IMG/VR virus record: IMGVR_UViG_3300022744_000116
Location: 1 to 20,203 of that record
Reading direction: 5' to 3' (one strand)
DNA from: a virus
Length of the DNA: 20,203 bases
In this document: positions 2-13,423 of the stretch, piece by piece
Layout: each line of letters starts with the position of its first letter
Position numbering within the stretch: position 1 is the first letter of the stretch
Notes under the pieces: generated by a model
Told to the model about the DNA's origin: nothing
The model's database searches: none
What the model saw: only the letters and a program-made list of their open reading frames with translations
Position numbers and translations under genes: made by a program

Positions 2-406
2 ACGATGCCTGACGAGGTAGGCCGTGAAGTGGTGGACGGTTTCCATCGGCACCGCGTTGGAAAAGAGTGCGAAGAAGTCAGAACGAGGGTGTCCGGGTAT
101 TTGCCAACAGTTCGCATCAAGGCTAGTCAAGAAGGAAAGGCAGACAGAATGGCCGCGACCATTCGACACAACCGAGCGCGCGGAGAGCATCGGGTGGATT
201 CGATGTCGGAAATCGTGGTTGAACTCAAGCGACGGTTTTGGTCTGACGAAAAGATCGCCAAAGAACTAGGCATGGAGCCGGATGAGGTACTGAGGTTGAC
301 CCAAATCACTGGGCTTATCGGGCTTTTCCAAGACTCCGAGTTCAGCACCGCATGGGAAGCTGATTCGATTGATGAAACCCAAGGGGCCGATGAGCATGAC
401 GATTAA
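2..406 (+). CDS. ParB/Srx-fold protein, IbrB-like (5' partial)
   Basis: The reading frame is open to the left edge, so the true start lies outside the window and only the C-terminal part is seen. The visible protein begins with a VVDGFHRHRVG stretch, similar to the DG-x-R/HR motif of ParB/sulfiredoxin-fold proteins and of IbrB. An Arg/His-rich segment (ATIRHNRARGEHR) follows, and then a probable helix-turn-helix (SDEKIAKELGMEPDEVLRLTQ region). ParB-like proteins bind DNA and some hydrolyse nucleotides. IbrB is known as a partner of the PAPS-reductase-like IbrA, and an IbrA-like gene lies two ORFs downstream, which supports the call. The end is acidic (DDE-rich). It overlaps the next gene by 17 nt, suggesting translational coupling. 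The molecular role is not known. The first in-window ATG (position 5) is probably internal. Confidence 0.75.
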   Translation, partial: TMPDEVGREVVDGFHRHRVGKECEEVRTRVSGYLPTVRIKASQEGKADRMAATIRHNRARGEHRVDSMSEIVVELKRRFWSDEKIAKELGMEPDEVLRLTQITGLIGLFQDSEFSTAWEADSIDETQGADEHDD

Positions 407-791
407 CGAGTCTCGTCCGCCAGATCACGAAACATGGCTGCCCTATTGGGAGTGGGAAGAATGTACACGCAACATGTGGGGCAGTGTTTCGCACAGGAAA
501 ACATGGGTGAGCATGGCTGCTGAGTTCACCGGAAACGCCGAACTGTATGGCGAATGGATGAGAAAAGTGGTGGAGCGGTGGCCCAACTCTTGCGCGCATA
601 ACCTTTCAAAGTCTGGGGATAAACACCCCTGGATCGGGCATGCTGCGGTAGCATTGGCAATCGCATGCCCTGAAGACATTGTTCGCGAGGCTTGGGCGAT
701 GCTCAATGATGAGCAGCAGCGGCTTGCAAATATCAAGGCAAGCGAAGCAATTGACTATTGGAAAGAAAGCAATGCCAAAAAAGTATCTTGA
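390..791 (+). CDS. Small hypothetical protein of the IbrA/IbrB-like cassette
   Basis: About 133 residues, soluble, rich in Trp and His, with a PWIGHAAVALAIACPE segment in the middle and a helical C-terminus (EAWAMLNDEQQRLANIKA). I recall similar small proteins next to IbrA-like genes in other phages but cannot name a domain or activity. An AAGGGG ribosome-binding site at about 381-386 serves ATG 390 or, with better spacing, ATG 396; ATGs at 369 and 372 lie upstream of that site and are less likely. The gene overlaps the preceding one by 17 nt and the following one by 20 nt. It is therefore locked between the ParB-like and PAPS-reductase-like genes and is probably expressed and functioning with them. 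Confidence 0.7.
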   Translation: MSMTINESRPPDHETWLPYWEWEECTRNMWGSVSHRKTWVSMAAEFTGNAELYGEWMRKVVERWPNSCAHNLSKSGDKHPWIGHAAVALAIACPEDIVREAWAMLNDEQQRLANIKASEAIDYWKESNAKKVS

Positions 792-1998
792 CCACAATGT
801 ACTGGAAGCCGCCAAAGACCGGATTTCTTGGACGTTTGATGAGTTTGATCGAATTTACTGTTCTTTTTCCGCGGGGAAAGATAGCGGGGTAATGACGCAT
901 CTTGTGTGCGAAGAAGCCAGAAAGCGAGGGCGAAAGGTTGGATTGTTTTTTTTAGACTGGGAAGCCCAGTTTTCTTTGGCGATAGATTTTGCAAAAAAGA
1001 TTTTTGAGGAATATAAGGATTGCATTATTCCGTATTGGGTTTCAGTTCCGATCAAGACGTGGAATGCGTGTTCATCCCATGAGCCAGAATGGACGGCCTG
1101 GGACCCTGACAAAAAAAACCTTTGGGTTCGCGAGCCAGAAGCGATAAGCATCACTGATGGGAAGTTTTTCCCATTTTGGTATGAGGGGATTATGTTTGAG
1201 GAGTTTGTTCCTACGTTCGGGCAGTGGTTTGCCCAAGGAGAGAAGTGCGCATGTTTTGTTGGTATCCGTGCGCAAGAAAGCCTTAACCGCTTTCGAGCCA
1301 TTTCGGTTGATAAAGCAACATACAAAGGGCGGATGTACACCACTAACGTGGTTGAAGAGTTGTGGAATGTTTACCCGATTTACGACTGGAAAACCGAAGA
1401 CATATGGCGATTTCATGCCAAGACCGGAAAGAGTCATAATGTGCTGTATGATCGAATGTATCAGGCCGGCATGACTATTAACCAAATGCGCATCTGCGAG
1501 CCCTTTGGGGATGAGTCTCGCAAGGGGCTTTGGTTGTATCAGGTCGTGGAACCTAGCACCTGGGCAAAACTGGTTCTTCGGGCGAATGGAGCCAATACCG
1601 GGCGCATGTACAGTAATGAACGAGGCAATGTCATGGGCAACCACACGATCACCCTTCCAGAAGGGCATACATGGCAAAGTTTTGCAATGAGCCTTTTAAA
1701 GTCAACGCCCCCCAAAACAGCACAGCACTATAAAAACAAAATTGCCGTGTACTTAAAGTGGTGGATGAGTCGGGGGTATTCGGATGGAATCCCTGACGAG
1801 GCCGATTTGAAGCTGGAAAACAACCAGAAGGCGCCAAGCTGGCGAAGAATTTGCAAGACTTTGTTGCGCAATGACTACTGGTGCAAGTACATGGGGTTTA
1901 GCCCTACCAAGACCAGCGCCTACGCCAAGTACACGGATCTTATGGCGCGCAGGCGGGCGAAGTGGGGATTGTTCTCGGAAGACATCGCCACTAAGTGA
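772..1998 (+). CDS. PAPS reductase/ATP-pyrophosphatase family protein, IbrA-like (DUF3440-type)
   Basis: 408 residues. Residues 33-39 read SAGKDSG, the PP-loop motif of the adenine-nucleotide alpha-hydrolase fold shared by PAPS reductase, DndC and IbrA. A downstream VGIRAQES segment resembles the conserved region after the PP-loop in this family, and a long C-terminal half resembles DUF3440 proteins. Such enzymes use ATP or an adenylyl-sulfate to activate a substrate. Which one is used here is unknown, and no Fe-S cysteine cluster is obvious. The start at 772 (MPKKYLDH) is chosen because it overlaps the small upstream ORF by only 20 nt and has a GAAAG site nearby; an in-frame start at 679 would overlap by over 100 nt. 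The gene looks more AT-rich and A-rich than later genes, hinting at a separate origin. It is paired with the ParB-like gene at the left edge. Confidence 0.85.
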   Translation: MPKKYLDHNVLEAAKDRISWTFDEFDRIYCSFSAGKDSGVMTHLVCEEARKRGRKVGLFFLDWEAQFSLAIDFAKKIFEEYKDCIIPYWVSVPIKTWNACSSHEPEWTAWDPDKKNLWVREPEAISITDGKFFPFWYEGIMFEEFVPTFGQWFAQGEKCACFVGIRAQESLNRFRAISVDKATYKGRMYTTNVVEELWNVYPIYDWKTEDIWRFHAKTGKSHNVLYDRMYQAGMTINQMRICEPFGDESRKGLWLYQVVEPSTWAKLVLRANGANTGRMYSNERGNVMGNHTITLPEGHTWQSFAMSLLKSTPPKTAQHYKNKIAVYLKWWMSRGYSDGIPDEADLKLENNQKAPSWRRICKTLLRNDYWCKYMGFSPTKTSAYAKYTDLMARRRAKWGLFSEDIATK

Positions 1999-10820: not shown

Positions 10821-11198
10821 ATGGAAATTGATTACTCGGATCTGTTGGCCGCGATGTCGGCTAAGAAAGAAATTCAAATCAAGCATGCCGGGCATTGGTA
10901 TGGCGTGTCGCATGGCGGACTGTGTGCGCAAATGGCGCGAGGCGAGGCGATCGAGTGGCGCGAGCGAGTCAAGACGATGGTGCAGCGTCATCAAACAATT
11001 CCAGCACCGATGGCGGGGACGATCTGTATAGGTGATGTGTATTTTGTGCCAAATCTTTTTAGTTGCGAGTTGGTTTCTGCTGTTTTTTGGACTGAGGACC
11101 GGATCGACCGTATATCTTTTGAGCGCGGACTCGTCTACGCTACTGCTGAAGCTGCTGCCGCACGCGCTCAGGCCATGCTGAATATCTCGGAGGAATAA
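10821..11198 (+). CDS. Hypothetical protein upstream of nrdA
   Basis: 125 residues. Mixed alpha/beta, no membrane segment, ending in an Ala-rich helix (ATAEAAAARAQAMLN). No family is recognised. GGAG (about 10808-10811) is best spaced for ATG 10821; ATG 10815 is too close. It shares one base with the nrdA start, so it is likely co-expressed with ribonucleotide reductase. Confidence 0.65.
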   Translation: MEIDYSDLLAAMSAKKEIQIKHAGHWYGVSHGGLCAQMARGEAIEWRERVKTMVQRHQTIPAPMAGTICIGDVYFVPNLFSCELVSAVFWTEDRIDRISFERGLVYATAEAAAARAQAMLNISEE

Positions 11199-13423
11199 TG
11201 GAATACCTCGGCATTCAAATTCACGACAAAGCGCCGGGGTATGTTGATGCCTTTTCGCAAACCCTGCTTGAAGGGCACTACCTCAAGGATGGTGAATCCG
11301 TCCCTCAGGCTTACGCGCGAGCTGCTACCGCGTTTTGCTACGGTGATTACGCCCTAGCACAGCGGGTCTATGACTACGCTTATAACGGCTGGTTCATGTT
11401 TGCGTCTCCGGTCCTGAGCAATGCGCCCAAGGGTAAATGGGTGGAGGATGCCGATAAGGATGGCGCGCATTATTGGTATCACCATACCTTCGTTCCTGAG
11501 GGCAAGATTGATGGGATGCCGATTAGCTGCTTTGCGATGTCCATCCCTGATACCGCTCGGGGGCAAGTGGAGGCGGTTCAGGAGCTTGCTAGCCTGTCTA
11601 TGGCTGGCGGTGGCCTTGGTGCCCATAACATGATTCGGGGAACCAGTAAAAAGGCCCCTGGCCCGATTCCTTACATGACGATGATGGATTCGGCTATCGG
11701 CTACTTTAAGCAGAAGGGTTCACGCCGAGGCGCACTCGCGTTCTATCTTGATGTCGATCATCCCGACATCATGGAGCACATTCAATTCCGTGTGCCGGGT
11801 GGTGACGCCAAGCGCCGCAGCGACAACCGGACGCAGTTTCATTCCGCTGTCAATCTGACCGATGCGTTTATCGAGGCTGTCGAGAAAGATCAAGAGTATG
11901 AACTGAAGTGCCCGCACTCTGGAAAGGTCTATGACACACTGCGAGCCCGCGCGGTATGGGAGGAGATCATCGAAACGCGCGCCCTGACTGGTGAGCCGTA
12001 TCTGATGAAGATCGACCTTGCAAATCGAATGCTGCCCGATAGCCAAAAGCGCATGGGCTTGAAGGTGCATGGGTCGAACCTGTGCGTTCGCGGGTCTACC
12101 GTGGTTCTGACCGATGCGGGTGAGCGCCGAATTGATTCGATGGTCGGCGAAAAGGTGAGGGTGTGGAATGGCGACGAGTGGAGCGAGGTAACGCCCGCAA
12201 TCACTGGCGAAAATCAGCGGCTGGTCCGCGTTACGCTGAAGTCGGGCAAGGAGCTGGATTGCACGTTTTATCATCGCTTTTATCTTTACGGCGACGAAGA
12301 TACGCCTACGCCTGCGATCGACCTGCGTCCCGGTGATGTGCTGGAAGAATGGATTGGCCCGGACGACTGCGCCGTGTTCGGTGAGGTTGCATCGGTCAAG
12401 CTGATTCCCGGACTGCATCGCACCTACTGCTTCACGGAGCCTAAGCGGCATCGCGGGGTGTTCAATGGCATCCTGACCGGCCAGTGCAGTGAAATCACTC
12501 TCCCCACTGACGAAGACCGGACTTTCGTTTGCTGTCTGTCTAGCTTGAATATCGAGAAATTCGACGAATGGAAAGACTCGCGGATTGTGGAAGACCTGAC
12601 GCGGTTCCTTGATAACGTGCTGCAATTCTTCATTGATTTTGCTGGCCCAGGGATGGAGAAGGCGGTTTACTCTGCCGAGCGTGAACGAGCTTTGGGGCTG
12701 GGAACTCTTGGCGTCCATGCGTATCTGCAGGCGAAGTCAATCCCCTTCGAGTCGGGCGGGTTTAACTCGGCTGCGCAGGTCATGAATCAGGTCTATGGGC
12801 TCATCAGCTCGCGCGCTGATACTGAAAGCCGTGCGCTTGCGGTGGAGCGTGGCGAGGCTCCAGATATGACGGGCACGGGGCGGCGTAACTCGCGTCTAAT
12901 GGCGATCGCGCCCAACGCGAATTCCGCCGATCTGCTGCGCACTAGCCCGAGTGCCGAGCCGTGGTATCGGAATGTCTTTGTTAAGGACACCCGCGCCGGA
13001 TCGTTTACGGTGCGCAATGCCAATCTTGAGGATGTCCTTGCGCGATACGGCCGGAACACGCCTGAGACGTGGGCGCGGATTCAGTCGGACAATGGGTCGG
13101 TGCAGGGGCTGGAATTCCTCGCGGACCACGAGAAAGCGGTTTACAAGACGGCTACCGAGATTGATCAGCATTGGGTGATCGAACTGGCGGATCAGCGGGG
13201 AAAGTACGTCGATCAAGCGCAATCGACTAACGTGTTCTTCACGGCTGGAATGTCGCGGGAGTACGTCAATAGCGTTCACCTCAAGTTCCTTCGCTCACCC
13301 CACGTTGTGACCATGTATTACATGCGCATGGAGCGGGAAGTTAAGGTAGACTCGGCTCGGACGATTGAGCGGCAGGCCCTCGCCGATTGGAAGGGCGAAG
13401 ACTGCGTTGCCTGCCAAGGCTGA
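11198..13423 (+). CDS. nrdA: Ribonucleotide reductase large subunit with in-frame intein
   Basis: 741 residues as translated, 607 after removing a predicted 134-residue intein. The enzyme reduces ribonucleotides to deoxyribonucleotides, here with the NrdB encoded next. Visible hallmarks: PISCFAM (Cys111, matching the redox Cys225 of E. coli NrdA); SNL-C-SEI split by the intein, with Cys430 matching the thiyl-radical Cys439; CCLSSLN (Cys445, matching Cys462); a TMYYM tyrosine pair for radical transfer; and a C-terminal CVAC redox pair. There is no N-terminal ATP-cone, so dATP feedback inhibition is not expected; this is common in phages. A GGAGGAA site 3-10 nt upstream supports ATG 11198. A short GGGGC/GCCCC hairpin follows the stop. 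Confidence 0.93.
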   Translation: MEYLGIQIHDKAPGYVDAFSQTLLEGHYLKDGESVPQAYARAATAFCYGDYALAQRVYDYAYNGWFMFASPVLSNAPKGKWVEDADKDGAHYWYHHTFVPEGKIDGMPISCFAMSIPDTARGQVEAVQELASLSMAGGGLGAHNMIRGTSKKAPGPIPYMTMMDSAIGYFKQKGSRRGALAFYLDVDHPDIMEHIQFRVPGGDAKRRSDNRTQFHSAVNLTDAFIEAVEKDQEYELKCPHSGKVYDTLRARAVWEEIIETRALTGEPYLMKIDLANRMLPDSQKRMGLKVHGSNLCVRGSTVVLTDAGERRIDSMVGEKVRVWNGDEWSEVTPAITGENQRLVRVTLKSGKELDCTFYHRFYLYGDEDTPTPAIDLRPGDVLEEWIGPDDCAVFGEVASVKLIPGLHRTYCFTEPKRHRGVFNGILTGQCSEITLPTDEDRTFVCCLSSLNIEKFDEWKDSRIVEDLTRFLDNVLQFFIDFAGPGMEKAVYSAERERALGLGTLGVHAYLQAKSIPFESGGFNSAAQVMNQVYGLISSRADTESRALAVERGEAPDMTGTGRRNSRLMAIAPNANSADLLRTSPSAEPWYRNVFVKDTRAGSFTVRNANLEDVLARYGRNTPETWARIQSDNGSVQGLEFLADHEKAVYKTATEIDQHWVIELADQRGKYVDQAQSTNVFFTAGMSREYVNSVHLKFLRSPHVVTMYYMRMEREVKVDSARTIERQALADWKGEDCVACQG
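12083..12484 (+). mobile_element. Mini-intein in NrdA (no homing endonuclease)
   Basis: Residues 296-429 of NrdA interrupt the conserved SNLCxEI motif. The insert starts with Cys1 in CVRGSTVVLTDAGERRI (block A pattern), has a TFYH block B motif (TxxH) about 60 residues later, and a block F-like TYCFTEPKRHRGVFNG near the end. It ends ILTGQ, followed by Cys+1 of the extein, which is the predicted radical cysteine. At 134 residues it is splicing-domain size, with no LAGLIDADG or HNH endonuclease. The usual penultimate His and terminal Asn are Gly and Gln. Gln-terminal inteins are known, so splicing is likely but unproven. Confidence 0.88.

Follow-up and report, generated by a model that had tools for sequence, protein, structure and literature searches.

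The three-gene cassette

The window, the whole stretch of DNA analysed here, is an entire IMG/VR virus record of 20,203 bases and its gene content includes a block for phage replication as well as ribonucleotide reductase, terminase and portal-like genes. Its first 2 kb are occupied by a cassette of three overlapping genes on the plus strand:

2..406, plus strand: IbrB-like ParB-family gene, 5'-truncated at the contig edge; assigned from its phrog_2159 match and aligned full-length relatives
390..791, plus strand: middle gene, 133 aa; an undescribed all-helical family, characterized from a structure model and 226 copies in context
772..1998, plus strand: IbrA, 408 aa; PP-loop/PAPS-reductase-like domain followed by a DUF3440 C-terminal domain

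The three same-strand reading frames listed in an earlier note on this DNA are present, with DGFHR in the first and SFSAGKDSG in the third, and the 17-nt and 20-nt overlaps given there are exact when the middle gene is started at ATG 390. However, ATG 396 is the more likely start: it fits the N-termini of homologues and is preceded, at a distance of 9 nt, by an AAGGGG. It yields a protein of 131 aa with an 11-nt overlap with the IbrB gene. The proposed start of the first frame at ATG 5 had to be abandoned because relatives carry approximately 100 further N-terminal residues; the frame is incomplete, 134 of about 235 residues being left and the start having been lost at the contig edge. Given the base composition, 408 consecutive codons without a stop, as in ibrA, would arise by chance with P ~3e-9. 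The gene order in the window, ibrB-middle-ibrA, departs from the classic two-gene ibrA-ibrB operon.

Linkage, gene orders and fusions

All three genes belong to a single conserved unit with overlapping reading frames, and a DUF3440 C-terminal domain always follows the small helical protein. Directly downstream of the 226 middle genes, which comprise copies in viral contigs and phages with the same contig repeated among some loci, lies ibrA (169), a stand-alone DUF3440 tail (55) or the end of the contig (2). The conserved co-occurrence envisaged in the earlier note is thereby borne out, the middle gene standing upstream of ibrA or a tail in 224 of 226 cases and overlapping that downstream gene in 204 of the 224. 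Scans seeded with the middle gene gave a DUF3440 gene (ibrA or tail) adjoining it in 147 of 148 loci, and in the lone exception the contig ends 35 bases past the middle gene. Of the 80 loci nearest to the window IbrA in an IbrA-seeded scan, 68 have the middle gene; among the 12 loci lacking it, L024 and L028 have scant upstream sequence or a partial ibrA. At 90% identity IbrA falls into 115 clusters; the middle gene is present in 99 of them, and the other 16 have the two-gene ibrA-ibrB form.

The stand-alone tail is mostly 90–140 residues long and shares homology with the C-terminal ~75 residues of IbrA; in around 50 loci it had passed for a second copy of ibrA, a reading that was rejected. 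It was observed at L242 7446-7646 (Gaia gp107), L243, L126 and about 50 other loci, always directly after the middle gene. Separately, L224 holds two ibrA and two ParB-like matches within one cluster. The arrangements encountered were:

ibrB-middle-ibrA, as in the window
middle-ibrA-ibrB
ibrA-ibrB-middle-tail, including Mycobacterium phage Gaia, whose unit spans genes 103-107, and Pseudoalteromonas phage XCL1123
middle-tail-ibrA-ibrB
ibrB::middle fusion-ibrA, an in-frame fusion

The middle gene thus stays beside ibrA or DUF3440 in each of five gene orders, and despite having been fused in frame to IbrB repeatedly. A tree of 58 IbrA representatives shows 4 or more changes in whether the middle gene is present, 9 in arrangement and 3 or more in the fusion label. 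An adjacency maintained through rearrangement, together with fusion to IbrB, is strong evidence that the middle protein works with both IbrA and IbrB.

The window system shares its domains, the DGFHR motif and adjacent overlapping genes with the known IbrA/IbrB pair (E. coli ECOR-9 prophage; K-12 ybdN/ybdM; COG3969/DUF3440 plus ParB), but that pair consists of two genes in the order ibrA-ibrB, whereas a third gene and other orders are found here, along with an IbrA tail bearing class-specific residues. When IbrA with and without the middle gene were compared, five of the six best-separating columns fell in this C-terminal tail, a pattern to which shared ancestry could contribute. The classic ibrA-ibrB order without a third gene was seen at L239, L246 and others, and two-gene versions lacking the middle gene include E. 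coli ybdNM and some phages. Correlation of distances was modest between the middle protein and IbrA (Mantel r 0.34-0.37) and stood at 0.69 between IbrA and IbrB.

The middle protein and its distribution

Amino-acid changes in the middle frame are far rarer than silent ones (pN 0.26-0.27, pS 0.72-0.86 against the nearest relatives), so that it is a true protein gene. No family in Pfam, PHROGs, NCBIfam or PADLOC was matched by the window protein, in agreement with its description in the earlier note as the least described component, and no consistent match to Pfam, PHROG or NCBIfam was obtained with 49 family members; matches of single members to unrelated families of these three collections at E 0.002-0.1 were sporadic and attributed to chance. 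AlphaFold models the protein confidently as all-helical (pLDDT 94.1). No solved structure is a clear relative of the model: its best match was to a designed protein (Z 3.6), Foldseek against the PDB returned nothing with E < 2, and the Foldseek and VIA neighbours (Z <=3.6) were common helical arrangements. In BFVD a single confident match, at 47% identity, evidently belongs to the same family. Conservation within the family is highest at an N-terminal W-E pair, and its most conserved block reads W..SCEHNL(S/T)....N(R/K).AW(I/L)G(Q/H)AA.

The family is rare among isolated phages, where five tblastn records carry it, all annotated as hypothetical proteins; the middle gene of Microcystis phage Mwe-JY13 was found by profile in a further record. 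The annotation of that gene (L238 3067-3492) as ParB/sulfiredoxin is a mislabelling, the profile placing it in the middle family. For scanning collections the mixed alignment A1 proved too diverse, and clade alignments A4 and A5 replaced it. In IMG/VR the family is common, two clade-specific scans giving 179 and 139 candidate relatives, of which 80 loci were kept from each. Among 85,000 genomes of bacteria and archaea, clade-specific patterns picked out one middle-gene locus, and no such locus was found in the 72,556 plasmids scanned; the comparison of viral, chromosomal and plasmid counts is qualitative because the pattern sets differ between scans. The sole genome-collection locus, L088, is on a Planctomycetota MAG contig (JAJFFD010000098.1) that may itself be viral.

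IbrA and IbrB

The window IbrA matches PF01507 (E 6e-15, 56.1 bits, cut-off 22.5) and then PF11922, that is DUF3440 (E 9.3e-40, 136.8 bits, cut-off 25), which is the PAPS-reductase-then-DUF3440 architecture of IbrA with both domains above the curated cut-offs. Along with the matches to phrog_2302 (E 3.1e-91) and, for the first gene, to the ParB-like phrog_2159 (E 7.7e-40), and the adjacency of the two genes, this confirms the IbrA/IbrB identity suggested in the earlier note.

Across 58 diverse IbrA representatives GKDS, D62/E64, GxRxxESxxR, PxYDWxxxDxW, R240, R270 and N367-D368 are unchanging, while no cysteine is invariant: C242, C361 and C371 are replaced in 9-14 of the 58, and a CxxC occurs in 1 of 40 aligned sequences. 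The N-terminal domain of the IbrA model superposes on human FAD synthase (Z 14.4, 3.7 A, 179 aligned), a match tied within error with those to APS/PAPS reductases (Z 13-14), and the PP-loop thiolases TtuA and NcsA are further fold neighbours. From the invariant residues and fold matches, and from the variable cysteines, it follows that the nucleotide site has been kept and sulfur redox chemistry has not. IbrA retains the whole adenine-nucleotide alpha-hydrolase (PP-loop) core but has no conserved set of redox or iron-sulfur cysteines, so PAPS reduction or DndC-like sulfur transfer is unlikely. FMN adenylyltransferase (the PAPS domain of FAD synthase), which stands among the best structural neighbours, is a PP-loop enzyme that transfers AMP without reductase cysteine chemistry; IbrA differs from it in having no FMN link and in possessing DUF3440 and phage partners.

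In the window IbrB, which was aligned with full-length relatives, the DGFHR motif is followed by a region resembling the ParB helix-turn-helix. A ParB_N domain was detected in 34 of 44 relatives and DG(F/Y)HR in 233 of 235, so the gene adjoining ibrA is a ParB-family IbrB, truncated in the window copy; with the IbrA fold matches, both superfamily assignments of the earlier note hold. IbrB shares the ParB_N domain with SerK/SbnI, Noc and ParB of the ParB/Srx superfamily, and its matches to Noc, ParB and SbnI are weak; no ParA partner was seen with IbrB, which is paired with IbrA instead. Its likeness to the ParB/Noc CTPases (CTP hydrolysis, DNA clamp) is a weak profile similarity. At L076 3974-4631 the ParB-like gene seems to be split into two overlapping frames, through a frameshift or an assembly error.

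Genomic context

Recurrent neighbours of the cassette are genes of replication and recombination, namely Toprim-DnaB primase-helicase, ERF, helicases, NinG and HNH. Since the unit sits among such genes, its most likely role is an early one in infection, affecting DNA metabolism of the phage or host, or the control of that metabolism. No cysteine desulfurase or other sulfur-supply gene and no recurrent methyltransferase was recognised in the recurrent neighbour clusters, whose members are annotated in part.

IbrA and IbrB in the literature

The original study of IbrA/IbrB reportedly concerned activation of eib. The pair is widespread in phages and bacteria. One paper calls its members prophage co-activators (PMC4490671), and another speaks of an IbrAB complex in a Flavobacterium phage (PMC4541368). 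In E. coli K-12, ybdNM is described as being repressed by CitR (PMC9068703). IbrA/IbrB has also been named a candidate toxin-antitoxin pair, by association, in Listeria (PMC7020466), and is mentioned for a Heimdallarchaeal virus (PMC8813620). Our search of papers readable without subscription found neither a third component nor a biochemical function described for IbrA/IbrB. With hundreds of phage sequences carrying the middle gene beside ibrA and ibrB, the supposed two-part system therefore has an undescribed third part. The lack of this subunit may be why work with two genes would miss activity in phages, and its tracking of DUF3440 through rearrangements, stand-alone tails and fusions shows which proteins to co-purify.

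Viral genes called cysH or PAPS reductase have been reported as sulfur-metabolism genes (PMC8725595) and listed as unvalidated (PMC12713726); in general, a viral gene bearing either label may be IbrA, which is without the catalytic cysteine motif.

Functional interpretation

The reading we favour, though tentatively and at somewhat below an even chance, is a three-component phage version of IbrA/IbrB, forming an early complex in which IbrA would adenylate, IbrB is ParB/Noc-like and a helical partner would dock on the DUF3440 tail. IbrA would spend ATP to adenylate a substrate, or move an adenylyl or otherwise activated group, in the manner of its neighbour FMN adenylyltransferase; IbrB would bind nucleotide and DNA and direct the activity of IbrA; and the middle protein could dock on the DUF3440 tail and couple IbrA to IbrB. 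Against this reading stand the working of the same IbrA core without the middle protein in two-gene systems, the modest correlation of distances between the middle protein and IbrA, and the phylogenetic non-independence of the tail-specific IbrA columns.

Two alternatives are unlikely to a similar degree. In the first, the module modifies DNA or RNA: IbrA would activate and IbrB target a base or backbone change (sulfur or other) in phage DNA that counters restriction, with the middle protein as specificity subunit. The PAPS-reductase-like fold that IbrA has in common with DndC, SspD and BrxP, weak profile matches to DndC and BrxP (E 1e-5 to 8e-4), the thiolases among its fold neighbours, the ParB-type similarity and HTH-like region of IbrB and the placement among replication genes all agree with it. 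However, the window IbrA scored 16.3 bits against the DndC model TIGR03183 (cut-off 290.4), lacks the conserved Fe-S cysteines of DndC and has no recognised Dnd partners; none of the 44 IbrB matched a DndB model (NCBIfam or PADLOC, E 1e-3), and the partly annotated neighbour clusters revealed neither desulfurase nor recurrent methyltransferase. The DndC/DndB analogy drawn in the earlier note is not supported by these comparisons, nor is the idea of phosphorothioation or DNA marking, though the module may carry out some other nucleic-acid chemistry.

In the second, the module turns on phage or prophage genes as a transcription co-activator, as reported for E. coli ibrAB, with the middle protein as an added regulator. 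The resemblance of IbrB to Noc, ParB and SbnI and the phage annotations naming the pair co-activators of prophage gene expression are in its favour, but it leaves the invariant ATP alpha-hydrolase active site of IbrA unexplained.

Counter-defence or host takeover, in which the complex chemically changes a nucleotide-based signal or some protein of the host, for instance by AMP transfer, is somewhat less probable still. It would suit the adenylyltransferase-like fold neighbours of IbrA and the wide spread of the cassette among phages that are unrelated, set beside no match in plasmids and a single chromosomal contig, but no linked defence target is known. We hold at the same low level the idea of a novel machine modifying nucleic acids or nucleotides, in which a ParB-like switch together with an obligate helical adaptor would aim an adenylating PP-loop enzyme, giving phages a new chemical mark or form of counter-defence. 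Auxiliary sulfur metabolism, with ibrA as a cysH-like PAPS reductase aiding host sulfate assimilation, is highly improbable despite the PF01507 domain and the database label of PAPS reductase given to relatives, as the catalytic ECGxH motif (ECG(I/L)H in CysH) occurs in 0 of 235 IbrA, which largely refutes a CysH identity, a ParB-family partner accompanies nearly all loci with enough flanking sequence, and IbrA carries the extra DUF3440 domain.

Further features of the window

Directly 3' of the cassette, positions 2098-2712 encode a MarR/HTH-like N-terminus joined to an HNH endonuclease C-terminus. Within the ribonucleotide reductase large-subunit frame (11198-13423), GSNL and CSEITLP flank an intein-like insert that leaves no room for a homing endonuclease; the insert starts with CVRGSTVVLTDAGERRI and ends with FNGILTGQ in place of the usual His-Asn.
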